Part shown: piece after piece, positions 1,443-58,897 of the stretch
How positions within the stretch are numbered: position 1 is the stretch's first letter
How the letters are laid out: each line of letters opens with the position of its first letter
Source: Actinobacteria bacterium HGW-Actinobacteria-2
GTDB lineage: Bacteria > Actinomycetota > Actinomycetes > Propionibacteriales > Propionibacteriaceae
Direction of reading: 5' to 3'
Length of the DNA stretch: 64,000 nucleotides
NCBI GenBank assembly: GCA_002841335.1
Contig: PHEY01000003.1
Location: 62,001-126,000 of the forward strand
The notes under the pieces: generated by a model
The model's input: the letters and a program-made list of their open reading frames with translations, nothing else
Told to the model about the DNA's origin: nothing
Databases searched by the model: none
Program-made: the position numbers and the translations under genes

Positions 1443-1539
1443 CTATTCCGAGATTGAGTGAACGGTGTTGCCGATATCTGTTGGTGCTGGCAGGCTGGTG
1501 CCGGGTTGTGGGCGCGTTGACGGCTGGGAGCGGCGTTAG

Positions 1540-2178
1540 ATGATCGATGGAGTCGTGCGGATCAGTGTGGTCGAAGGTGACCCATTCGCCCGGCGGGCCA
1601 TCAGCGCCTTCTTCGCCAACTTCGCCAACATCCACCTTGATGCCATGTACTCCTCGGGCTCAGAGGCGATTGCCGACGCTGTTGATGCCACCCCTCACGT
1701 CATCGTCACCGATCTGGACAGCCCCGGTGTTGGCGGCCTTGACTTCGTTCACGCCGCGGGCGGCCTCACCAAGCCCCCCCGAATCGTCTGCTTCATGTCG
1801 ATCGTGCCGTCGAACATGGTACGAACGATTCTCGACGCCGGAGTCCGTGGCCTCGTGCTGAAAGACGACCACCCAGACCTCCTTCTCCACGCAGTCCGGC
1901 TCGCCTGCACCGACGACATCCTGGTGTCACCGAGGCTGATTGGTGGCTTGCTGGGCTCACTGCCCCTTCGGGGCTTGCCACCGACCGACCTCTCAGACAG
2001 AGAGCTTGACCTGGCGCGGCTCGTCGGGCTCGGACTCAGCAACTCCGCCATCAGCGATCGCCTGCATCTCTCACCCACTACGGTCAAGACGTACGTGAGT
2101 CGGCTGCTCCGCCGATCAGGCTGCCGTGATCGAGCCATGATGGTTGCCCGTGCCCATCAGTGGGGCCTGGTCGACTGA
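1540..2178 (+). CDS. NarL/FixJ-type response regulator (orphan)
   Basis: A 212-residue protein with an N-terminal receiver domain (about 1-120) and a C-terminal LuxR-type HTH (about 148-208; LSDRELDLARLVGLGLSNSAI, then TTVKTYVSRLLRRSG). Phosphoacceptor Asp58 sits in VTDLDSP and the conserved switch lysine is Lys108. The acidic pocket is degenerate (VEGDP in place of the usual adjacent D-D), so phosphorylation may be weak or absent. No histidine kinase gene lies nearby. It is convergent with, and ends three bases from, the last gene of the bacteriocin operon. A role in controlling that operon is possible but not shown by the sequence. Confidence 0.85.
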   Translation: MIDGVVRISVVEGDPFARRAISAFFANFANIHLDAMYSSGSEAIADAVDATPHVIVTDLDSPGVGGLDFVHAAGGLTKPPRIVCFMSIVPSNMVRTILDAGVRGLVLKDDHPDLLLHAVRLACTDDILVSPRLIGGLLGSLPLRGLPPTDLSDRELDLARLVGLGLSNSAISDRLHLSPTTVKTYVSRLLRRSGCRDRAMMVARAHQWGLVD

Positions 2179-2181
2179 CCC

Positions 2182-2952
2182 TCACCGGGCTGGTCGCACT
2201 CCACGCCAACTTGCTGCCACAAACAGTGCACTCCAAGCGAGCAGGCCCATCGAAGCCGGGATCGGACTGACTGTCGTCAGTGCATCGGCGGCCGTCACCG
2301 TCGCAGACTGCATCAGGCCTGGCGGTAAAAACTCGACCGCACGCGCGACCTGCACCAAGTCCATCCCACGCAGCCCTGCCGCGATCGCGGGCGGCGCGAG
2401 CATCACCCCCAAGAGCAGTCCGAGAGCAGGAGCGGACCGACGAAATAGCCACCCGGACATCGCGCCAAGCGACATCCACGTCACGTGGGTGGTGAGCACT
2501 CCCACGACATTCACCCACACTGACCGAGAGGTCATCGCGTCGATGAGGAGATCGTGAGGAAGGATGATCACCGCAGCCAGTGCGATGCCAACCAGTCCCG
2601 CCACGCTCACAGCCAATGTGACCATCGCCCCGACGCTCAACTTTGCGAGCAAGACCGCCCGTCGTAGCAAGACCTGGAGCGAGAGGTTGATCACGCCGGT
2701 GGACGTGTCCGAGGTCACCATGATGATCGCGAAGACACCGATCAACAGGCCTGACACGAGCGTCCCACTGGCCGGAGCCACTGCCACCAACTCCAGTTGC
2801 TCTGCTCGCGATGCCCCGCGGTTCATCGCATCGAGTGATGCGAGCAGCGCGAGGACGGCCACCGAAACCATCGCAGCCACCACCAAGGGCAGCAACCACC
2901 AGGTGATTCTGTGTGCGCGGAGTTTGATCAACTCGGAACGAAACGCGTTCAT
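2182..2952 (-). CDS. ABC-2 type permease of bacteriocin cluster
   Basis: A 256-residue integral membrane protein with about six hydrophobic segments, starting MNAFRSELIKLRAHR, the typical N-terminus of ABC-2 permeases that precedes the first helix. Its ATG overlaps the stop of the ATPase gene by four bases, so the two form one exporter. It is the last gene of the operon that begins with the lacticin-Q-like peptide. In the lacticin Q and aureocin A53 systems an ABC exporter of this size class (LnqEF, AucEFG) secretes the leaderless peptide and contributes to immunity; I infer the same job here. General drug or lipid export cannot be excluded on sequence alone. Confidence 0.85.
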   Translation of the reverse strand: MNAFRSELIKLRAHRITWWLLPLVVAAMVSVAVLALLASLDAMNRGASRAEQLELVAVAPASGTLVSGLLIGVFAIIMVTSDTSTGVINLSLQVLLRRAVLLAKLSVGAMVTLAVSVAGLVGIALAAVIILPHDLLIDAMTSRSVWVNVVGVLTTHVTWMSLGAMSGWLFRRSAPALGLLLGVMLAPPAIAAGLRGMDLVQVARAVEFLPPGLMQSATVTAADALTTVSPIPASMGLLAWSALFVAASWRGVRPAR

Positions 2953-3878
2953 CTCAGTTCTCCATCTGCAACTACGGCCTCTGGTGCAGCCGGAGTCACG
3001 CGATACTGCGCGTGCTCGGCGGTCAACTCCACGAAGCGCTCTTCCAGTGTCTGATGCTTGGCTTCGAGGTGAGTCAGCAACACCCCGGCGCCGTGGGCTA
3101 GCCGACTCACCTCAAGGGGATCCATTCGGCTGATGACGATCTTGGCGTCTCCCAGCTTGGCGACCTCGGCCCCCGCCGCTCGGCAGGTCTGGGCTAGCAG
3201 GGCCAGGTTGTCTGCCGAAGCCACCGTCTCGCGCGGACCTTCCGCAAGGAAGTCAGTCAGATCACCCTCCGCACGCACCCGCCCCGCCGCGATCACAACA
3301 ATTCGATCAGCCGTCTGCGCCAGTTCGCTCAACAGATGCGATGAGACGAGGACCGCGACTCCGCGCTGCGCGAGGCTGCGGCACAACGTCCGCACCCACC
3401 AAACCCCTTCCGGGTCGAGCCCATTCACTGGCTCGTCCAGCAGCACAGTTGCCGGTTCACCCAGGAGGATCGTGGCGATCCCCAGGCGCTGACGCATTCC
3501 CAGTGAGAACGTGGCTATTCGGCGACGCGCCACGGAGGTGAGGCCGGTCGACTCCAATGCCTCACTGACGCGCTGTTTTGGCACTCCCTGGGCGGCGGCG
3601 AGCATCCACAGATGATCAAAGGCTGTGCGGCGCCCGTAACACCACGACGGGTCCAGCATCCCGGCGATTCCATTCGCTAACGGACGACCTCGATCCGAGT
3701 CCCGCACCGTACCTGCGTCTGGATCCTCTAGCCCGAGAATCAGCCTCATGACGGTCGACTTCCCCGCTCCGTTCGGGCCCACCAGCCCCGTCACAAGACC
3801 ATTTGGAATCGTGAAGGAAACATCGGACGCGGCCTGGACCTCGCCATACCGTTTGCTCACACCTCTGAGCTCAATCAC
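2949..3878 (-). CDS. ABC transporter ATPase of bacteriocin cluster
   Basis: A 309-residue ATP-binding subunit: Walker A GPNGAGKST at about 34-42, signature SLGMRQ at about 125-130, Walker B VLLDEP at about 145-150, H-loop SSHLLSE shortly after, and a C-terminal extension of about 90 residues as in CcmA/BcrA-type exporters. I chose the GTG at 3878 (VIELRGVSKRYG follows at once) because AGGGGAG stands upstream; an ATG at 3929 would add 17 residues with no family match. The start lies inside the end of the preceding PH-domain gene (8-base overlap) and the end overlaps the permease gene. This gives a tightly coupled export/immunity unit. Confidence 0.9.
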   Translation of the reverse strand: MIELRGVSKRYGEVQAASDVSFTIPNGLVTGLVGPNGAGKSTVMRLILGLEDPDAGTVRDSDRGRPLANGIAGMLDPSWCYGRRTAFDHLWMLAAAQGVPKQRVSEALESTGLTSVARRRIATFSLGMRQRLGIATILLGEPATVLLDEPVNGLDPEGVWWVRTLCRSLAQRGVAVLVSSHLLSELAQTADRIVVIAAGRVRAEGDLTDFLAEGPRETVASADNLALLAQTCRAAGAEVAKLGDAKIVISRMDPLEVSRLAHGAGVLLTHLEAKHQTLEERFVELTAEHAQYRVTPAAPEAVVADGELR

Positions 3879-5298
3879 TAACGCGCTCCCCTCTCGGTCG
3901 AACTGACTGTGCAGCGAAAGCGTCCGCAACGGTGGGCACCATCAGCGGCAACCACAGCCACTTCGGTCGCCTGTCCATTACCCGCACTCGCGCTACCTGC
4001 CTGGGGAGGACCCCGGGCATTGCCATGCTTTCGATCAGCCGCACAGAGCCGGTGTGCATGACGTACTCCCGACGCCATAGGAGGCCCCGACGATGGCGGA
4101 ACACCGTGGACCCGGCCGGAGGCAGCCACACCTTCACCCATACGGAATTTGCGAACAGAAGTGCCGCCAACAGCCCTCCCGTGGCGATCCAGAATGAACC
4201 AAGGACGGCCAGGACAGCTGCTGCGCTCACGCCGATCGCGACGACAACCCATGGCAACCCGGCGGAGGTAGTGGCCTCCTCTCTTTGGGTCAGCGAGCCA
4301 GGAATCAGCCTTTCGGACAGTTGGCGGACCGCACTGGTCGGCGCGGCGGGCAGCACGACCAGCGAACGAAATTCGCCTCGCGCTGAGGCCAACACCAGAC
4401 TCACCGAGTAGCGGCCCATCATGTACATGAGCGGATTCTGTGAGATCAGAAGGCCCTGCACCTCGTCGTGTCTGGCCCGGCGATGATGGCGCGCCCACAG
4501 CCCACACTCGGCTTCGAACCCGTCCGCGTCCGCCTCCACCCGGTACCCGCCGTAGGTTGCGATGGCACGCACGAACCCGAACGCGGCAGCCGCAACGATG
4601 AAGCTGGCGCCCATGACCCAGCTTCCCGAAGCGAGACCGTCGACCAGCACCCTGCCGTTCGGTAGAGCCAGAGCGTCGGCCACCTCCGACCAAGCACCCA
4701 ACAGGAACGGCACCAGCAACACGAACTGTCCATAGCCCACGGAGATGATCGCGTAGTCCGGCCAGCGAGCGCGGTAGAGCTCGCTGGTCGCTGTCTGCGG
4801 TGCCGGGCCAGTGCGACAGCGTGGAACCGCTCCACCGGCCGGAACCGGTTCCGGCGCAACCTTCCCGGCGGTCGCTCGGTGGTATTTCCGCAGCTGCGCG
4901 ACGGTGGACGCGTCAAGCGCATCGAGCGTGATGTCGGCCTTGCCTTCTGCTCCAACGACCGCTCGGACCTGGTAGCGATGGAGGAGTTGATGAAAGACGT
5001 TCTGCTCCACGTGGAGGGCCCCGATCTGGGACCACGTCGCCTGCGTGGTGACGCGATTCAACCAGCCACTCCGGTACACGATGCCATCGGCTGAGTAGGA
5101 GTAGCGGATCGTCATCCAATCAAAGAAAATGAGGTTAAGGCGGGTCACCGAGTAGTAAGCGACCAATGCCCACCACAGCCACAGAAATGGGGGTGTCAAC
5201 CTCTCCGCGATGCTGCCCTGGACGAGCATGAACGGCAAGTACACCTTCAACGCGTCGATTGCTCGCAGGACGAGGAGAGCCGGGCTACACCGACGCAT
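3871..5298 (-). CDS. Bacterial PH-domain membrane protein, YdbT type
   Basis: A 475-residue membrane protein with repeated units of paired hydrophobic helices followed by bPH2 (PF03703, DUF304) domains. An example is the N-terminal segment RYSYSADGIVYRSGWLNR, in which a sheet-forming stretch follows two helices; similar units recur near residues 240-300 and 390-440. This is the large partner of a YdbS/YdbT pair. Two PH-domain proteins next to each other are part of the accessory and immunity genes of leaderless bacteriocins such as lacticin Q and aureocin A53 (established for the family). It overlaps the preceding small PH-domain gene by 14 bases and the following ATPase gene by 8. Role in self-protection is inferred from context. 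Confidence 0.8.
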   Translation of the reverse strand: MRRCSPALLVLRAIDALKVYLPFMLVQGSIAERLTPPFLWLWWALVAYYSVTRLNLIFFDWMTIRYSYSADGIVYRSGWLNRVTTQATWSQIGALHVEQNVFHQLLHRYQVRAVVGAEGKADITLDALDASTVAQLRKYHRATAGKVAPEPVPAGGAVPRCRTGPAPQTATSELYRARWPDYAIISVGYGQFVLLVPFLLGAWSEVADALALPNGRVLVDGLASGSWVMGASFIVAAAAFGFVRAIATYGGYRVEADADGFEAECGLWARHHRRARHDEVQGLLISQNPLMYMMGRYSVSLVLASARGEFRSLVVLPAAPTSAVRQLSERLIPGSLTQREEATTSAGLPWVVVAIGVSAAAVLAVLGSFWIATGGLLAALLFANSVWVKVWLPPAGSTVFRHRRGLLWRREYVMHTGSVRLIESMAMPGVLPRQVARVRVMDRRPKWLWLPLMVPTVADAFAAQSVRPRGERVSD

Positions 5299-5764
5299 TC
5301 GGGCCCTGTCGGCTCAATGGTGAATCACAGATCTGCTTCGCCGTGCCCAATTCGACCGGGCCGAGGTCGTGGACCGAACCGAGTGTGCCCATCCGAACCG
5401 TCCCCAGTCCCAACCTTCTTTGCCATGGGCCCTGCCGCAGTTCGGTGAACAAGATCTGATCTGCCGGAACCAAGAGGCGTCGTTCGAAGACCCTTCCTTG
5501 CCGAATCCGAGTACCCGTTCCATCCACCTCGTATCGGTAGTACGCCAACCTGCGAGGCAGGAGCCACAGCATGTCGAACACCGTCCCCACCACGGCCCAC
5601 GCTGCCACTCCCACCGCAAGGATCTGGACCCAGGCGACATCGCGCCAGTACAACCACGCCGCAGCGGCGAGGACACAGCCCACCAGACACCCGACAATCG
5701 CCTGCAGACGCCAGAGGGTCAATGCCTCAGCAGGCAGCCTCCGGGACGCCTCACTACTCGGCAT
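5285..5764 (-). CDS. Bacterial PH-domain membrane protein, YdbS type
   Basis: A 159-residue protein with two membrane helices in the first 80 residues (around AIVGCLVGCVLAAAAWLYW and the stretch after VAWVQIL), then one bPH2 domain (YRYEVDGTGTRIRQGRVFER, then VPADQILFTELRQGP). It is the small partner of the YdbS/YdbT pair. I use the ATG at 5764, which overlaps the upstream stop by 11 bases; the longer frame from 5848 would lie wholly inside the upstream gene. Position between the small membrane protein and the large PH-domain protein matches the accessory block of lacticin-Q-like clusters. Immunity or export assistance is inferred. Confidence 0.8.
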   Translation of the reverse strand: MPSSEASRRLPAEALTLWRLQAIVGCLVGCVLAAAAWLYWRDVAWVQILAVGVAAWAVVGTVFDMLWLLPRRLAYYRYEVDGTGTRIRQGRVFERRLLVPADQILFTELRQGPWQRRLGLGTVRMGTLGSVHDLGPVELGTAKQICDSPLSRQGPNASV

Positions 5765-6026
5765 CAGGCAACTCCGTGCGGCGTCGACGCGCCGTGACCC
5801 ACCACGAAACCAGGGCGAAGAAGCCGATGCCGGCAAGAACCCAGTCAACCCACGAGCCCATCCTCGCAGTGCTTGCCAGATAGACGATCAGTCCTGCATA
5901 CGCTGCAGGGACCAGCCCTCCTAGCCATGCGGCGCTTTGCTTGACCAACCAGGATTGCGCTACCAGCACCGCAGCCAACCCCATGGCGATTACCAGGTAG
6001 GAGACGTCGAATCGTTGGAAGAACAT
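5754..6026 (-). CDS. Small membrane protein of bacteriocin cluster
   Basis: A 90-residue protein with three predicted membrane helices (around residues 8-27, 34-52 and 59-77) and a basic tail TARRRR before an acidic end. The ATG at 6026 has GAGGG at good spacing; earlier in-frame starts would fall in the stem-loop region. I do not recognise the family with certainty. It is the first gene after the bacteriocin structural gene and is coupled to the YdbS-type gene. Leaderless bacteriocin operons usually contain one or more such small hydrophobic proteins involved in immunity, which is the inferred role. Confidence 0.7.
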   Translation of the reverse strand: MFFQRFDVSYLVIAMGLAAVLVAQSWLVKQSAAWLGGLVPAAYAGLIVYLASTARMGSWVDWVLAGIGFFALVSWWVTARRRRTELPDAE

Positions 6027-6062
6027 GTCGACCCTCTGTTCAAATCGGTAGAATTTGTGGCA

Positions 6063-6095
6063 GTGGTTGGCGCTGCTAGTCTCAGCGCCAACCAC
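6063..6095 (-). terminator. 13-bp stem-loop between bacteriocin gene and accessory genes
   Basis: Arms GTGGTTGGCGCTG and CAGCGCCAACCAC are perfect complements around a 7-base loop. It lies 18 bases after the bacteriocin stop and 36 before the next start. On the transcribed strand the stem is followed by ACAAATTC rather than a U-run, so it probably acts as a partial terminator or RNA-stabilising 3' end, giving more structural-gene than accessory mRNA. Function inferred. Confidence 0.65.
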
Positions 6096-6113
6096 CTTCT
6101 CACAAGATCTGGG

Positions 6114-6278
6114 TCACTTGATGCCGAGAATCTGCTTGATCTTCCTGACGATCCAGTCGATCGCTGCGCCCTGACCGATCCACTTGAAGATCAGATCCTT
6201 GTTCGCCCAGGCCCAGTCGACGGCCCGCTTGCCGTACTTCGCCAGCAGTTGAATCAGTTTGATAAATGGACCCCACAT
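6114..6278 (-). CDS. Leaderless bacteriocin, lacticin Q/aureocin A53 family
   Basis: Encodes a 54-residue peptide with no leader, no double-glycine or signal-peptide site, and an ATG preceded by GGAG with 6-base spacing. It has five Trp (2, 22, 24, 33, 42), ten Lys/Arg and three Asp (net about +7), and no Cys. Segments QLLAKYG, AVDWAWANK, AIDWIV and KIKQILGIK match what I recall of lacticin Q almost residue for residue; aureocin A53 and lacticin Z share the same pattern. Known members fold as a compact bundle of four amphipathic helices and permeabilise Gram-positive membranes without a receptor. The peptide is first in an operon with PH-domain proteins and an ABC exporter, as in the known systems. 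A longer frame to 6320 adds 14 unconvincing residues. Confidence 0.93.
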   Translation of the reverse strand: MWGPFIKLIQLLAKYGKRAVDWAWANKDLIFKWIGQGAAIDWIVRKIKQILGIK

Positions 6279-6579
6279 GCCAATCTCCGTTCTTGGCGAG
6301 CACGTCTCGCCGCGCATCAAACGTCACACAGCATTTGGGCTTGACCAAGATCGAACGTCGAATCGAGTACCGACGGGCACTCACTGCCACCCCAGGTTGA
6401 CATGGCGGTTCCCGGATGGGGTTCGTTGGAACACCCAGGCGATACTGATGATGCAGCGCCGGACGCCATGCTCGCGGGGCGAGTGTTCACCCATGGCATT
6501 CGATCCGCAACGAGTCCTGTGCAGGTTCGACGCCATTGGCACGGTTCACCCCTGACCGACGGTGGTTGTTCCCTTCTGG
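6279..6579. promoter_or_regulatory. Upstream region of bacteriocin operon
   Basis: About 300 bases without a convincing gene. It must hold the bacteriocin promoter on the minus strand. I see no strong -35/-10 pair; TTGGTC around 6340 is the best -35-like hexamer but lacks a good partner. Open frames here show no coding character. Confidence 0.45.
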
Positions 6580-6918
6580 CTACTGCCCCATCGGCACCAC
6601 ATTGAGAACGACGAAAATCAGCACCACGACCGCGGTGATGATCAGCGGGAACCGGCCGGACGGCGCCCCGGCAGCGACCGCCCGGCGCGCGAAGTAGGCC
6701 ACCGGCCACAACGGAAGGGCGAACACCGCTATTGCCGCAGCGGTGGCGACCACGCCGGCCCACAGCGGCGGACGCTCGGCGCCGCCCACCTCATAGCCGT
6801 AGGCGCTGATCAACCCCTCCCCCACGAGGAAGGCGGCGACAAACGCCGGCACCAGTAAGAGCATCGACAACCACGCCCACAAAACGGACTTGCGAGCGGA
6901 AAGATCCGTCTCGTCCAT
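6580..6918 (-). CDS. Small membrane protein, unknown function
   Basis: A 112-residue protein with three to four hydrophobic helices: around 14-34, 55-78 (GVVATAAAIAVFALPLWPVA) and 90-110 (PLIITAVVVLIFVVLNVVP), with the N-terminus acidic and the middle loop charged. Not a family I can name. High GC at third positions, unlike the bacteriocin genes, places it with the resident genome rather than with the insert. It is 42 bases from the HAD phosphatase gene on the same strand, which it follows, so it may be co-transcribed from further upstream. Confidence 0.7.
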   Translation of the reverse strand: MDETDLSARKSVLWAWLSMLLLVPAFVAAFLVGEGLISAYGYEVGGAERPPLWAGVVATAAAIAVFALPLWPVAYFARRAVAAGAPSGRFPLIITAVVVLIFVVLNVVPMGQ

Positions 6919-6960: not shown

Positions 6961-7617
6961 CTACAGCTGCTGAGCCCAGGCGAGCAACGCCGGATCAGCC
7001 AAGGACGCGACCTGGACGTGCGGCGCGAAGCCGTCCTGTGTGACCGTGGGCACCCCGACGACCGTCAGCCCGGCCGCCTTGGCCGAGTTCACCCCGACCA
7101 GAGTGTCCTCGAAGGCCACCGCGAGCTCCGGCCGCACCCCCATCACCGCACAGGCGCGCAGATACAGATCGGGAGCAGGTTTGCCGTGCTCGACATCCTC
7201 ACCGGCCACCACGATCTGAAAAGCATCGGTGAGTCCGGCTCGGGCCAGCGAGAGGTCGACCAGCCGCCGCTCGGAGTTGCTCACCACGGCGATCGGCAGC
7301 CGGCCGGCGACCGCCTGCACCAGCGCGACCGCGCCGGGCATCGGCTCGGCCCGGGCGGAGATCACCGCGGCCACGGTGTCAGTGAGCTCGGCCTTCAACG
7401 CCGCCTCGGCACCGGGACGGTCGAACCAGGTCGCCATCATGGTCACGTTGAAATCGATGGTGGTGCCGATCAGTCGCGCCTTCAACTCGGCAGTGAACTC
7501 CTGCCCGTGCGCGGCGAACATCGCCACCAGAGCTTCGGTCCAACATGACTCGGTCTCGACCAGCAGCCCGTCGCAGTCGAAGGCGATCGCCGCGGCCTTG
7601 GTGGGTAAAGCGATCAT
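6961..7617 (-). CDS. HAD-superfamily phosphatase (beta-phosphoglucomutase-like)
   Basis: A 218-residue HAD subfamily IA hydrolase. Motif I FDCDGLLVETE near the N-terminus provides the nucleophile and acid/base Asp; motif II VVSNSE, then motif III lysine in EHGKPAPDLYLRA and motif IV FEDTLVGVNSAKAAG complete the active site, and a helical cap lies between motifs I and II. Such enzymes dephosphorylate sugar phosphates or related metabolites; the substrate is not evident. The ATG at 7617 overlaps the TGA of the CCA-adding enzyme gene by four bases, so the longer frame to 7641 is rejected. Confidence 0.88.
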   Translation of the reverse strand: MIALPTKAAAIAFDCDGLLVETESCWTEALVAMFAAHGQEFTAELKARLIGTTIDFNVTMMATWFDRPGAEAALKAELTDTVAAVISARAEPMPGAVALVQAVAGRLPIAVVSNSERRLVDLSLARAGLTDAFQIVVAGEDVEHGKPAPDLYLRACAVMGVRPELAVAFEDTLVGVNSAKAAGLTVVGVPTVTQDGFAPHVQVASLADPALLAWAQQL

Positions 7618-9062
7618 GACGACTGCCGCTGCTGCCACCACTCCAACAACACCTCACGGGCCTTGTCAGCGCCCAGCGGGCCTTCCTCCATGCGTCGCTC
7701 CATCAAGAACTTGTAGGCCGCACCGACCTCTCGTCCCTCACCGATGCCCAGGATCTCCATGATCTGGGTGCCGTCCAGGTCGGGACGGATGGCGTTGAGC
7801 TCCTCCTGCGCGCTGAGCTCATCGATGCGCCACTCCAACTCCTCGTAGGTGCGACGCAACCGGTCGGCCTTGCGCTGGTTGCGGGTGGTGCAATCGGCCC
7901 GGGTGAGGATGTGCAGATGCTCCAGCTCGACGCCGGCGTCACGGACGTAGCGCCGCACGGCCGAATCGGTCCACTGGCCTTCGCCGTAGCCGTGGAACCG
8001 CAGATGCAGCTCGACCAGCTTGGAGACCGCCTTGATCTCGTCGTTGGAGAAGTGCAGCGCCTGCATCCGCTTGCGGGTGAGCTTGGCGCCGACCACGTCG
8101 TGATGATGGAACGACACCTTGCCACCGGGTTCGAAGCGGCGGGTCGCGGGCTTTCCGATGTCGTGGAACAGCGCGGCCAGCCGATTGATCAGATCAGGAC
8201 CGTGTCCGCGGGATCGCTCCAGCTCGATCGCCTGCTCGATCACGGTCAGGGTGTGCTGGTAGACGTCCTTGTGATGGTTGTGCTCGTCCCGCTCCATCCG
8301 CAGCGCGGGAAGCTCGGGCAGCACGATCTCGGCCAGGCCGGTCTCCACCAACAGGTCCAGGCCGACCCGCGGCCGGTCGCTGAGCATCAGCTTCACCAGC
8401 TCATCGCGCACTCGCTCGGCTGACACGATCCGGATCCGCTCGGCATCGGCGGTCATCGCCGCCACCACGTCCGGGGTCGGACGGAAGCTCAGCTGCGAGG
8501 CGAAGCGGGCCGCCCGCATCATTCGCAGCGGATCATCGGAGAACGAGATCTCCGGCGCCGACGGGGTGCGCAGCAGCATCGCGTCCAGGTCGTCCAGGCC
8601 CTTGAACGGGTCGAGCAGCTCGCCGGTGAACACGTCCAGGGCCATCGCGTTCACGGTGAAGTCGCGGCGCACCAGGTCACCGCCGAGGTGGTCGCCGAAC
8701 TCGACGATCGGCTTGCGCGACTCCGAATCGTAGGCGTCGGCACGGAAGGTGGTGATCTCGATCAGCAAGTCGGTGCCATCGGCTTCGACAATCCGGCAGG
8801 CAATGGTGCCGAAGTCGCGACCGACGTCCCAGACCGCGCTGGTGAACCGGCGCACCAGCACCTCGATCTCGTCCGGCCGGGCCGAGGTGGTGTAGTCCAG
8901 GTCGGTGGTCGGCCGCCCGAGCAGCGCATCCCGCACCGACCCGCCGACCAGGTACAACTCGTGTCCGGCCTCGCCGAAGGCGGCGATCAGCGCCCCCAAC
9001 GCGGGGCCGACCGCCAAGACCTGATCGAGTGCGACCCGTTGGTCGCCGGTGAGAGTCGGCAT
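7614..9062 (-). CDS. cca: CCA tRNA nucleotidyltransferase
   Basis: A 482-residue class II nucleotidyltransferase that adds or repairs the 3' CCA of tRNAs. The head domain shows LVGGSVRDALLGRPTTDLDYTT (GGSVRD plus catalytic DxD), then RRDFTVNAMAL and the RxxRFxxQL-like helix; an HD domain follows (LFHDIGKPATR, with HHHDVVGA). Actinobacterial annotation often calls this gene pcnA. It lies next to and divergent from the DUF6049-murJ pair exactly as in mycobacteria, which supports orthology. The ATG at 9062 is preceded by sequence shared with the divergent promoter region. Confidence 0.93.
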   Translation of the reverse strand: MPTLTGDQRVALDQVLAVGPALGALIAAFGEAGHELYLVGGSVRDALLGRPTTDLDYTTSARPDEIEVLVRRFTSAVWDVGRDFGTIACRIVEADGTDLLIEITTFRADAYDSESRKPIVEFGDHLGGDLVRRDFTVNAMALDVFTGELLDPFKGLDDLDAMLLRTPSAPEISFSDDPLRMMRAARFASQLSFRPTPDVVAAMTADAERIRIVSAERVRDELVKLMLSDRPRVGLDLLVETGLAEIVLPELPALRMERDEHNHHKDVYQHTLTVIEQAIELERSRGHGPDLINRLAALFHDIGKPATRRFEPGGKVSFHHHDVVGAKLTRKRMQALHFSNDEIKAVSKLVELHLRFHGYGEGQWTDSAVRRYVRDAGVELEHLHILTRADCTTRNQRKADRLRRTYEELEWRIDELSAQEELNAIRPDLDGTQIMEILGIGEGREVGAAYKFLMERRMEEGPLGADKAREVLLEWWQQRQSS

Positions 9063-9198
9063 AGCGAGTCATTCTAGTGGCGCAGCTGGCCCCTCACGTG
9101 ATCACCAAAACGGTCACCGGCGACCGTTCAGACGGGCTCATACCGCTGTCGCCGTCCGGCGCGCACTGGCGGACCTGGTCAGCCCGTACGATGGAGCG

Positions 9199-11247
9199 GT
9201 GACGAATGGCAACGCCTGGGCCGGACGGCTGGCCCGCGGGTTAGCCTTCGTCGCTGCCACCGTCGCCCTGCTCGGCGTCCCGGTTCCTCCGGTTGCCCAT
9301 GCCGACACCCCCATTCAGCTGACGTTGACGATGACGTCGTTGACCCCGTCAGGCTCCAAACCCTCCGACCTGGTCACCGTCCACCTGACCGTGACCAACA
9401 CCGGCACCGTCCCTGCCTACGGCGTGGTCGCCCACCTGTGGCGGTCCCGTGACGCGATTCGCGATCAGGGCAACCTGTCCACGCTGGCGTCCGGCGGGAC
9501 CACGCTCGGCGGCTGGTCGTCCGGCCCTGGCACCCATCAGTTGATCACCACCTCGATGACGGCCTTCGAGCCGGGTCAGGTCCGCGACTTCACCTTGAGC
9601 GCGACTTTGGCTCAGCTCGGGTTCGATTCCACCAGCGCCGCCTACGCCTTCGGGGTCGACGTCGTGGCCACGGCCGATCAGAGCAGCAACAACAGCGTGG
9701 TCGCCAAGGTGCGCACCTTCCTGCCGGTCTCCGGCAAGGCGTCGGTACCGCTGACCTCGGTCGTCCTGCTCACCTCGAAGCCGACGAAGCTGGCTCCCAA
9801 TGTGTTCGCCAACGAGAACCTCGCCACCGACCTGAGTGGACGACTCACCCCGATGGTGGACGCTGCAGCCGGCGCCGACCTCAACTGGTTGATCGACCCC
9901 GCCCTCCTCGACGAGGTCCGTGATCAGGCCGATGGCTACCAGGTCCTGGTCGACGGCAAGTTGCGCGACGGCACCGGTCAGCAGGCCGCCACCGACTGGC
10001 TGGCCCGCTTCGCCAAGCTGGACCCGGCCCACGGCGGACGCACGCTGTTCGGCAACCCCGACACCGCCGGGGCCGCCGCCACCGACCACCCCCAGATCTT
10101 CGACTGGTCGGCCACTTCCACCCAGGACCTCGCCGACCTCAGTGCGCTGCCGCTGGTGGCGCTGCCGTCCGGGCTGACCGGGAGCAGCGCGGCGATGAAC
10201 TTCCTCAAGGGCGCCGGCGCGAGCGCGGTGCTGGCCACCAACAGCCGGGTCGCCGGAGCGCTCCAGTCCACATCGTCGGGAACCCGGGTGCTCGCGGCTC
10301 AAGCACTCAGCGAGGTGCAGCCCGCCGATGCCACCGCATCGATCACCCAGCGCCAGCTGATGCTGGCCCAGAGCGTGATCGGCGGCAAACGTGGCCAGGT
10401 GCGGTTGATCACCGGACTGATCGGCTTGGCTGCCGACGCGGCCGCCCGGCCGAGTTGGGTCAACTCGCGCGATCTGGACGCAACCCTCGACACCGACACC
10501 CACGCCGGCGTCGAATGGGAGCCGGTGAAGGAGCAGCGACTCGACGCCGCCCGGCTGTCGATGCTCGATCGGCTCAACGACGCGGTGACGATCTACCGGG
10601 CGCTGGTTCCCGACTCGGTCCTGGCCAGCCAACCGGCGGCGTCGTCGCTGCGGTCGATCAGCGCCACCTGGATTCCCGACACCGAGGGCAGCCGAGCCTT
10701 CAACCAGGCGCTGATGGAGTTGTTCGGACGCGAGGCAGTCGGTGATCGGATACGCCTGAACGTCAGCCCCCGTTTGGTGATGTCGGCGCGCAGCAACCAG
10801 TTCCCGGTGACGATCACCAACTCCTCCTTCGAGCCGGTGAAGGTGCGGGTGGAGTTCACCACCCAGAACCCGCAACGGTTGGCGGTTCCGCCGTCGGAGT
10901 TCGTCACCGTCGATCCCGGGCAGAGTCAGACGATCAACATTCGTCCCGAAGCCACCGGCAACGGTCTGGTCACCGGCAAGGCCGAACTCGTCACCGAGAA
11001 CGGCCACCGCATCGGTGACCCCGTCCCGCTGACCATCGAGGTCACCGATCTGGGCGTGGTGGCGTGGATCATCGTCGGCGTCTCCGGAGCAGTCCTGGTC
11101 GGCGCCACCGCCTGGCGGATCCGGCAGGTCCGTCGCCGGGATGCCGCGGCCCAGGCCGGCCAGTCCGAGGCTGAGGCCGGCGAGCCCGAGTCCACCATCC
11201 CTGAGCCCCCCGCGTCCGCGTCCACTGAGCCCACTGAGGAGCCATGA
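9199..11247 (+). CDS. Secreted DUF6049-family membrane-anchored protein
   Basis: A 682-residue exported protein: signal peptide (LARGLAFVAATVALLGV, cleavage near AHA-D), a long extracytoplasmic region, one C-terminal membrane helix (VVAWIIVGVSGAVLVGATAW) and a basic then Pro/Glu-rich cytoplasmic tail. The N-terminal region (about 35-110) looks like a CARDB/beta-sandwich domain and another beta-sandwich lies before the helix. It is the counterpart of the protein encoded before mviN/murJ in other actinobacteria, and its stop overlaps the murJ ATG (ATGA). I chose GTG at 9199: a TACGAT -10-like hexamer ends seven bases before it, suggesting a leaderless transcript. It probably works with MurJ at the cell envelope, but the function is unknown. 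Confidence 0.8.
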   Translation: MTNGNAWAGRLARGLAFVAATVALLGVPVPPVAHADTPIQLTLTMTSLTPSGSKPSDLVTVHLTVTNTGTVPAYGVVAHLWRSRDAIRDQGNLSTLASGGTTLGGWSSGPGTHQLITTSMTAFEPGQVRDFTLSATLAQLGFDSTSAAYAFGVDVVATADQSSNNSVVAKVRTFLPVSGKASVPLTSVVLLTSKPTKLAPNVFANENLATDLSGRLTPMVDAAAGADLNWLIDPALLDEVRDQADGYQVLVDGKLRDGTGQQAATDWLARFAKLDPAHGGRTLFGNPDTAGAAATDHPQIFDWSATSTQDLADLSALPLVALPSGLTGSSAAMNFLKGAGASAVLATNSRVAGALQSTSSGTRVLAAQALSEVQPADATASITQRQLMLAQSVIGGKRGQVRLITGLIGLAADAAARPSWVNSRDLDATLDTDTHAGVEWEPVKEQRLDAARLSMLDRLNDAVTIYRALVPDSVLASQPAASSLRSISATWIPDTEGSRAFNQALMELFGREAVGDRIRLNVSPRLVMSARSNQFPVTITNSSFEPVKVRVEFTTQNPQRLAVPPSEFVTVDPGQSQTINIRPEATGNGLVTGKAELVTENGHRIGDPVPLTIEVTDLGVVAWIIVGVSGAVLVGATAWRIRQVRRRDAAAQAGQSEAEAGEPESTIPEPPASASTEPTEEP

Positions 11248-57970: not shown

Positions 57971-58897
57971 CTACGCGGCCGGGATCGTGGCCAGGATGTC
58001 GATGACGTAGGCCTGGGCGGCGGTCTGGTTGGCTTCGTCGGCCGGGTAGACCAGCAAGAGGCGCGAGCCGACCTTCTTGCCGACGGTCACCGCGCCACCA
58101 CCCGAGTCGATCTCTTGGTAGGAGCTCGACCAGCTGGAGGAGGTCGTGCCGCCCCACGCGCCAGCCACGATGTGGTACAGCAGCGAGTCGGTCTTGGTGA
58201 CGGTCGCACCGTTGCCTTCGGCCAGCACGATCACCTGCTGCTCGGTCGGCTTGGCAGCGTCCGCCGCGATGGTCAGCGTTGGTTCGTGGCCGAGCTCGCC
58301 GGTGACGGTGATGCCTGCCGGCAGGGTTGCCTGGGTGGGGGTCGCGGCCGCCAACGCCTCAGTGGTGACGGTCGTGGTGCCGAGGATGTCGACCACGAAA
58401 ACCAGCGTCGAACCGGCGGGGATGGAGTCCTTCTCCTCGTTGCCGTAGCCGTAGTCGGGCGGGACGATGAGCTGAACCCGGTCGCCGACTTTGGTGCCCG
58501 CCAGCCCGTACTTCCAACCGTCGACCACCTGGCTCAGCGCGAAGCTTGCCGACTTGCCGGAGTCATAGGAGGAGTCGAACTGGGTGCCGTTGCTCCACAG
58601 GAAGCCCGCGTAATTCACCTTCACGTAATCGCCGGCTGCAACCACGGCACCGGTGCCGGCGGTCAAGGTCTTCACCGAGATCACCGCCGGCGGATCGGAG
58701 GCGACTTGGGTCATGGTGGGGATGCCCTTGGAGTCGAACGTGATGGTGGGCAACTCGCCTCGCGGATTGCGATCAACCTCGGGTGCGGCGGCGCTGGTGC
58801 TGGCTGATGCCGACGGCGTGCTTGCGGTACCAGCAGTGCATCCAGTGAGGGCAAGACTGAGGGCGAGGACGACGGCGGGCAGGGTCTTGAGCGTCAT
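57971..58897 (-). CDS. FKBP-type peptidyl-prolyl isomerase lipoprotein
   Basis: A 308-residue lipoprotein (lipobox LTGC, Cys about residue 20), Ser/Ala-rich linker, a canonical FKBP domain (about 80-185; VKVNYAGFLWSNGTQFDSSY, VPPDYGYGNEEK, LVFVVDIL) and a second, degenerate FKBP-like domain (about 195-308; VGKKVGSRLLLVYP, AYVIDIL) lacking most active-site aromatics. It folds or binds exported proteins at the cell surface. ATG at 58897 is used since it starts a proper signal peptide. Confidence 0.9.
   Translation of the reverse strand: MTLKTLPAVVLALSLALTGCTAGTASTPSASASTSAAAPEVDRNPRGELPTITFDSKGIPTMTQVASDPPAVISVKTLTAGTGAVVAAGDYVKVNYAGFLWSNGTQFDSSYDSGKSASFALSQVVDGWKYGLAGTKVGDRVQLIVPPDYGYGNEEKDSIPAGSTLVFVVDILGTTTVTTEALAAATPTQATLPAGITVTGELGHEPTLTIAADAAKPTEQQVIVLAEGNGATVTKTDSLLYHIVAGAWGGTTSSSWSSSYQEIDSGGGAVTVGKKVGSRLLLVYPADEANQTAAQAYVIDILATIPAA

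Follow-up and report, generated by a model that had tools for sequence, protein, structure and literature searches.

The locus described here raises the question of whether a short reading frame in an actinobacterial chromosome encodes a functional leaderless bacteriocin, how the gene came to lie there and how its expression would be controlled. In the window, the whole stretch of 64,000 nucleotides that was analysed, the initial annotation had proposed a bacteriocin gene resembling that of lacticin Q at the following position:

6114..6278, minus strand: core peptide gene, aureocin A53/lacticin Q family, 54 residues, stop codon inside the interval

The core peptide and its family

The translation of positions 6114-6278 of the minus strand was intact (MWGPFIKLIQLLAKYGKRAVDWAWANKDLIFKWIGQGAAIDWIVRKIKQILGIK), and its computed composition (54 residues, with 5 Trp, 8 Lys, 2 Arg and 3 Asp; net charge +7; mass 6310.6 Da; pI 10.3) confirmed the length, the five Trp and the charge near +7 read at the outset. 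Two profile models matched the peptide far above their cut-offs, namely PF11758 (Aureocin-like type II bacteriocin; E 1.4e-18, 66.9 bits, cut-off 25) and the NCBI equivalog model NF033881 aureocin_A53 (E 3.5e-21, 74.6 bits, cut-off 27), which links it to the aureocin A53-like family; the PF11758 search returned no match in any of 14 control genomes. Among solved structures, the best match was lacticin Q (2n8p, E 4e-19), followed by epidermicin (3.3e-9), aureocin A53 (2.8e-8) and, weakly, BacSp222 (0.24 and 0.34). The blocks QLLAKYG, WAWANK and KIKQILGIK, which the initial annotation had matched to lacticin Q, proved identical in the alignment with 2n8p. Altogether, 34 of 51 aligned residues were identical to lacticin Q of Lactococcus lactis QU 5, with fewer identities to epidermicin NI01 (21 of 47 aligned residues) and aureocin A53 (17 of 48), both members of the same profile family. 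Four of the five Trp are in register with those of lacticin Q, and both peptides are strongly cationic and, on the evidence of the start codons given below, leaderless; the core peptide is one residue longer than lacticin Q, which has 53 residues and a charge of +6 (PMC6131525). The AlphaFold model consisted of four helices (residues 3-12, 17-25, 27-35 and 40-51; mean pLDDT 92.7, pTM 0.73), its input being an alignment of five sequences, some of them with one to four residues before the probable start. The family is characterised by a compact, saposin-like bundle of four to five helices, and from the sequence match the peptide may share the lacticin Q fold. The assignment was borne out by profiles, alignment with the sequences of solved structures, composition and modelled helices alike, and with the size, charge and Trp-richness of the family the core peptide is supported as an aureocin A53-like leaderless bacteriocin. 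Members of this family are expected to act unmodified and to keep their N-terminal formyl-methionine, which would raise the mass of the window peptide by about 28 Da.

The absence of a leader depends on the choice of start codon. A GGAG stands before the ATG at 6278. Two other in-frame starts are found farther upstream, at distances of 13 codons (ATG) and 14 codons (TTG). In the homologous loci L034, L041, L042 and L008, the upstream in-frame starts are all no more than about four residues from the position equivalent to 6278, and in three others (L005-L007) the start is one residue from it, after a purine-rich stretch; in L035 the core frame has several upstream in-frame starts. Because the homologue starts cluster at this point, a leaderless peptide beginning at the ATG at 6278 is well supported by the sequence comparison, as first read, and the longer forms starting at the upstream ATG or TTG are not favoured. 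In L036, near 7551-7590 on the minus strand of a fragmented assembly, no ATG, GTG or TTG was found ahead of the core frame, whose in-frame starts are rarer codons only.

The family is sparsely distributed. With the own genome included in every count and with overlapping samples, PF11758 matched 4 of 196 relatives, 5 of 198 genomes of the taxonomic family (3 of 29 genera), 2 of 394 genomes drawn from the class and 1 of 396 drawn from the phylum, and none of the matches listed came from another genome of the window's genus. A class relative with a 9.2-Mb genome (locus L046, genome G881) gave a weak match of 26.7 bits against the cut-off of 25. Relatives of known name included two Curtobacterium strains, another Microbacteriaceae genome and Streptococcus suis, and plasmid-borne relatives were found in Corynebacterium jeikeium, Parageobacillus and Lactiplantibacillus; in viral contigs, none of the 143 pattern matches encodes a relative.

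The initial annotation had held an actinobacterial member of the family to be surprising, a claim that did not survive comparison with the literature. A survey from 2024 collected 757 aureocin A53-like core peptides by genome mining, of which 97 already came from Actinomycetota (PMC11580447), and since such peptides had been reported from the phylum, the one in the window is no surprise; its novelty is further reduced by the dedicated NCBI model and by the Corynebacterium jeikeium plasmid records annotated with such a peptide. The same study described a Propionibacteriaceae cluster with a PH-domain protein, an ABC transporter and a response regulator, and reported that two synthesised peptides, arachnicin and arcanocin, were active at 100 µg/mL against L. 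lactis HP (PMC11580447). These two peptides and the Brevilactibacter/Propioniciclava cluster belong to the family and phylum of the window peptide, whose 34 identities in 51 residues to lacticin Q compare with published identities of 38.5% for arachnicin and 50.0% for arcanocin (PMC11580447). Neither "histidine" nor "hairpin" appears in the main text of that paper (PMC11580447); no other work naming arachnicin or arcanocin was found, and a wider literature search gave no other report of actinobacterial leaderless clusters among the matches listed. What is new here is modest and concerns the surroundings of the gene: its insertion, the absent kinase together with an altered receiver, a shared motif upstream of the core gene and a hairpin just behind it.

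An inserted cassette

The core gene lies in a segment with the following features:

1451..6577, no strand assigned: inserted cassette of about 5.1 kb, absent from same-genus loci; extent approximate
5754..6026, minus strand: small membrane protein of 90 residues, ATG at 6026, LnqB-like position
5285..5764, minus strand: short bPH_2 membrane protein of 159 residues, ATG at 5764; above cut-off
3871..5298, minus strand: long bPH_2 membrane protein of 475 residues, overlapping the short bPH_2 gene; above cut-off
2949..3929, minus strand: ABC transporter ATPase, ABC_tran above cut-off; start codon uncertain
2182..2952, minus strand: ABC-2-type permease, PF12730 at 25.8 bits, just under the cut-off of 27
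1540..2178, plus strand: LuxR-type response regulator at the far cassette end, with an altered receiver and no partner kinase in the cassette

On the minus strand, the core gene is followed by the genes for the small membrane protein, the two bPH_2 proteins, the ATPase and the permease, tightly packed or overlapping; all reading frames are open, and the cassette is apparently intact. The small membrane protein matched no Pfam family; the top NCBIfam model for the ATPase was a lantibiotic-protection ATPase, under that model's cut-off, and the position of the permease and the gene order are repeated in L034 and L036.

The cassette is flanked by a MarR gene (989-1411) and a gene for a small membrane protein (6580-6918). 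The site was probed with the adjoining hydrolase gene (6961-7641) in 24 genomes of the genus with a completeness of at least 80%, own genome included, and 7 of the 20 same-genus loci returned were extended. The cassette genes were missing between the flanks in all seven. The distance from MarR to the next detected flanking gene was 55-103 bp in six of them and 817 bp in L032; this neighbour was a homologue of 6580-6918 in L029-L031 and the hydrolase in the other four, where the 6580-6918 homologue was undetected. For example, in the comparison with L030 homology ended at 1450 and resumed at 6578, 11 bp there replacing about 5.1 kb. The cassette has a GC content of 62.8%, as against 65.9% for the window, and none of 236 blocks of equal size was lower. 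These data support a horizontally acquired insertion. Transposon or integron mobility found no support as its route: no direct repeat of at least 8 bases was shared near the cassette ends, where a single 8-base inverted match occurred, and neither terminal repeats (of at least 8 bases, near the ends only) nor an integrase marking the insertion was seen.

The source of the cassette was approached through its relatives, all four of the closest compared being from the window's taxonomic family. Identity to the window was 66% for the core peptide and 59% for the ATPase in L036 (genome G111), 54% and 52% in L034 (G067), 44% and 50% in L041 (G609), and 35% and 49% in L035 (G095). The core peptide is about equally near to lacticin Q, L036 and Curtobacterium (64%); with Curtobacterium and its relative L007 the ATPase shares 37-38% of its residues, with C. 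jeikeium 33% and with S. suis 28%. The ATPase identities thus favour L036 and L034, and by this comparison the whole cassette would belong, among those compared, with cassettes of its own family. Of the transfer suggested by the initial annotation, entry into the window's lineage was upheld by the empty sites, whereas the data do not favour recent arrival from a low-GC Firmicute, because the cassette has 62.8% GC and its closest relatives among those compared lie in another genus of the same family. Direct recent transfer is likewise disfavoured by the S. suis values (core 47%, ATPase 28%), which are below those of the same-family cassettes.

L034 and L036, from two genomes of another genus of the family, have the whole gene order of the window in common, plus a histidine kinase; in L035 the transporter sits on the opposite strand. 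In L041, two bPH_2 gene pairs (4051-5845 and 9093-10606) flank one core gene, which suggests duplicated export or immunity parts. PH-domain membrane proteins and an ABC transporter are usual neighbours of the core gene in the family, though some clusters lack them, and those of the window are alike in kind to lnqBCDEF. The lnqBCDEF genes were reported as necessary for lacticin Q production and immunity (PMC8657885, PMC6131525); production ceased when any one of lnqCDEF was deleted, and lnqB, C and D may provide accessory proteins to the LnqEF transporter (PMC8657885). The immunity of enterocin DD14 comes from a different membrane protein, DdD (PMC13262744). The window cassette differs from that of lacticin Q of Lactococcus lactis in lying in an actinobacterial chromosome at 62.8% GC, and in having a LuxR-type response regulator where lacticin Q has the TetR-family LnqR (PMC6131525).

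Possible control of the core gene

Two further elements lie on either side of the core gene:

6062..6096, minus strand: predicted hairpin immediately 3' of the core gene, stem of 14 pairs and loop of 7 nt; coordinates approximate
6388..6400, minus strand: putative regulator-binding motif TCAACCTGGGGTG, some 110 bp ahead of the core gene

The hairpin had a z score of -4.6 in a short stretch and -5.6 in a longer one. Strong hairpins were predicted just 3' of the core gene in all six loci folded (z -2.6 to -6.1), among them L034 (9053-9110), L036 (7325-7398), L041 (7900-7985) and L035 (9508-9600). The loop was 7 nt in all five family cassettes folded and otherwise in Curtobacterium L005, and the stem sequence differed in L035 and L041. 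It is proposed from these foldings that the hairpin protects or partly terminates the core transcript, by which it would raise the ratio of core to accessory transcript.

A HisKA_3 kinase gene is divergent from the core gene in L034 and L036, and kinases related to theirs are present in L035 and L041, so that a nearby histidine kinase was found in all four other family cassettes and is absent from that of the window (coordinates of the comparison: window 1540-2178, L034 7334-8497, L036 7996-9150). A tblastn search of the whole window with the kinases of two relatives gave a best E-value of 0.15 and thus no remnant. The window's own genome holds four weaker kinase relatives, the best 32% identical, and for this reason an unlinked partner is possible: one of the four could replace the missing kinase. 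The regulator, aligned with three relatives, retains D58, which we take to be the phosphorylated Asp of the receiver, and K108. Two residues common to the three relatives are replaced in it: a Thr, presumably that of the receiver switch, by Met, and an acidic residue, presumably of the acidic pocket, by Gly.

Upstream of its core gene the window has one copy of the pattern TCAACyTnnGGnG, drawn by eye from these sequences before counting, and L034 and L036 have two each; every one of these copies falls in the stretch separating the core gene from the kinase or its former place. L041 has one copy upstream of the kinase gene. Stray copies, at 58773 in the window and inside a gene in L035, lie outside the upstream regions of core and kinase genes. 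No match was found in 114,576 bp of control loci, overlapping stretches of the same genomes included, and none in L005-L007. A scan for sigma-70 promoters found none at the core gene. It may tentatively be suggested, as a rather doubtful extension of these observations, that the cassette lost its kinase on arrival, that the regulator, its receiver deprived of the switch Thr and one acidic residue, now acts unphosphorylated, or through a foreign kinase, on the one remaining site, and that the insertion thereby rewired the control of a self-toxic peptide, a reading that counts the single binding-site copy of the window against two in its closest relatives.

The same observations could be taken to mean that the cassette is unexpressed, because each of the four family cassettes examined has a kinase that the window lacks. 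The cassette would then have arrived intact, lost its kinase and become a decaying relic, with a drifting regulator and a peptide no longer made; the two receiver substitutions, at positions of presumed role, and the presence of the cassette in a single one of the searched genomes of the genus agree with this. However, the frames have remained open and the genes overlapping or closely spaced, and the core gene, the hairpin, the ribosome-binding site and one upstream motif copy have all been kept, which makes decay improbable.

Proposed function and significance

The reading preferred here is that the locus is very probably a horizontally acquired leaderless cassette of the lacticin Q/aureocin A53 kind, whose peptide, by analogy with studied relatives, would be exported and kill while the producer is protected. 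The 54-residue cationic peptide would be translated in its final form and fold as a four-helix bundle, to be exported by the ABC transporter (2182-3929) with the aid of the bPH_2 pair and the small membrane protein (3871-6026). Outside, it would kill neighbouring Gram-positive bacteria through membrane permeation, and the transporter, the bPH_2 proteins and the small membrane protein would also shield the producer. The hairpin past the core gene probably lets the core transcript exceed that of the transporter, and the LuxR-type regulator, which has lost its kinase, probably sets expression from the far end of the cassette.

As the regulator, and in relatives the kinase, form part of the cassette, the peptide could also be conceived as mainly a membrane-active signal or a self-acting molecule, regulator and exporter making up a feedback circuit. 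This is very unlikely in view of the close match to lacticin Q, for which killing at nanomolar levels has been demonstrated (PMC6131525), and of the activity of the two synthesised actinobacterial members, though at the 100 µg/mL quoted above (PMC11580447). Although this short reading frame lies on a high-GC strand with many spurious ones, the chance that this one merely resembles a bacteriocin is negligible and was rejected, given profile E-values of 1e-18 to 1e-21, silent control genomes and conserved cassettes in other genomes.

The leaderless bacteriocin cassette of the window thus adds an apparently complete, chromosomal actinobacterial example to a family that has been studied mostly in Firmicutes, at a site that is clean and empty in relatives. 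Since its core peptide ranks with the actinobacterial sequences most similar to lacticin Q among those compared, it is a sensible candidate for synthesis. Moreover, a cassette that is devoid of its kinase and retains the exporter and the putative immunity genes offers a test case for how a cell survives a peptide that is toxic before export, and, if the rewiring is true, it would together with the hairpin represent a compact natural case of retuning the production of an instantly active peptide.
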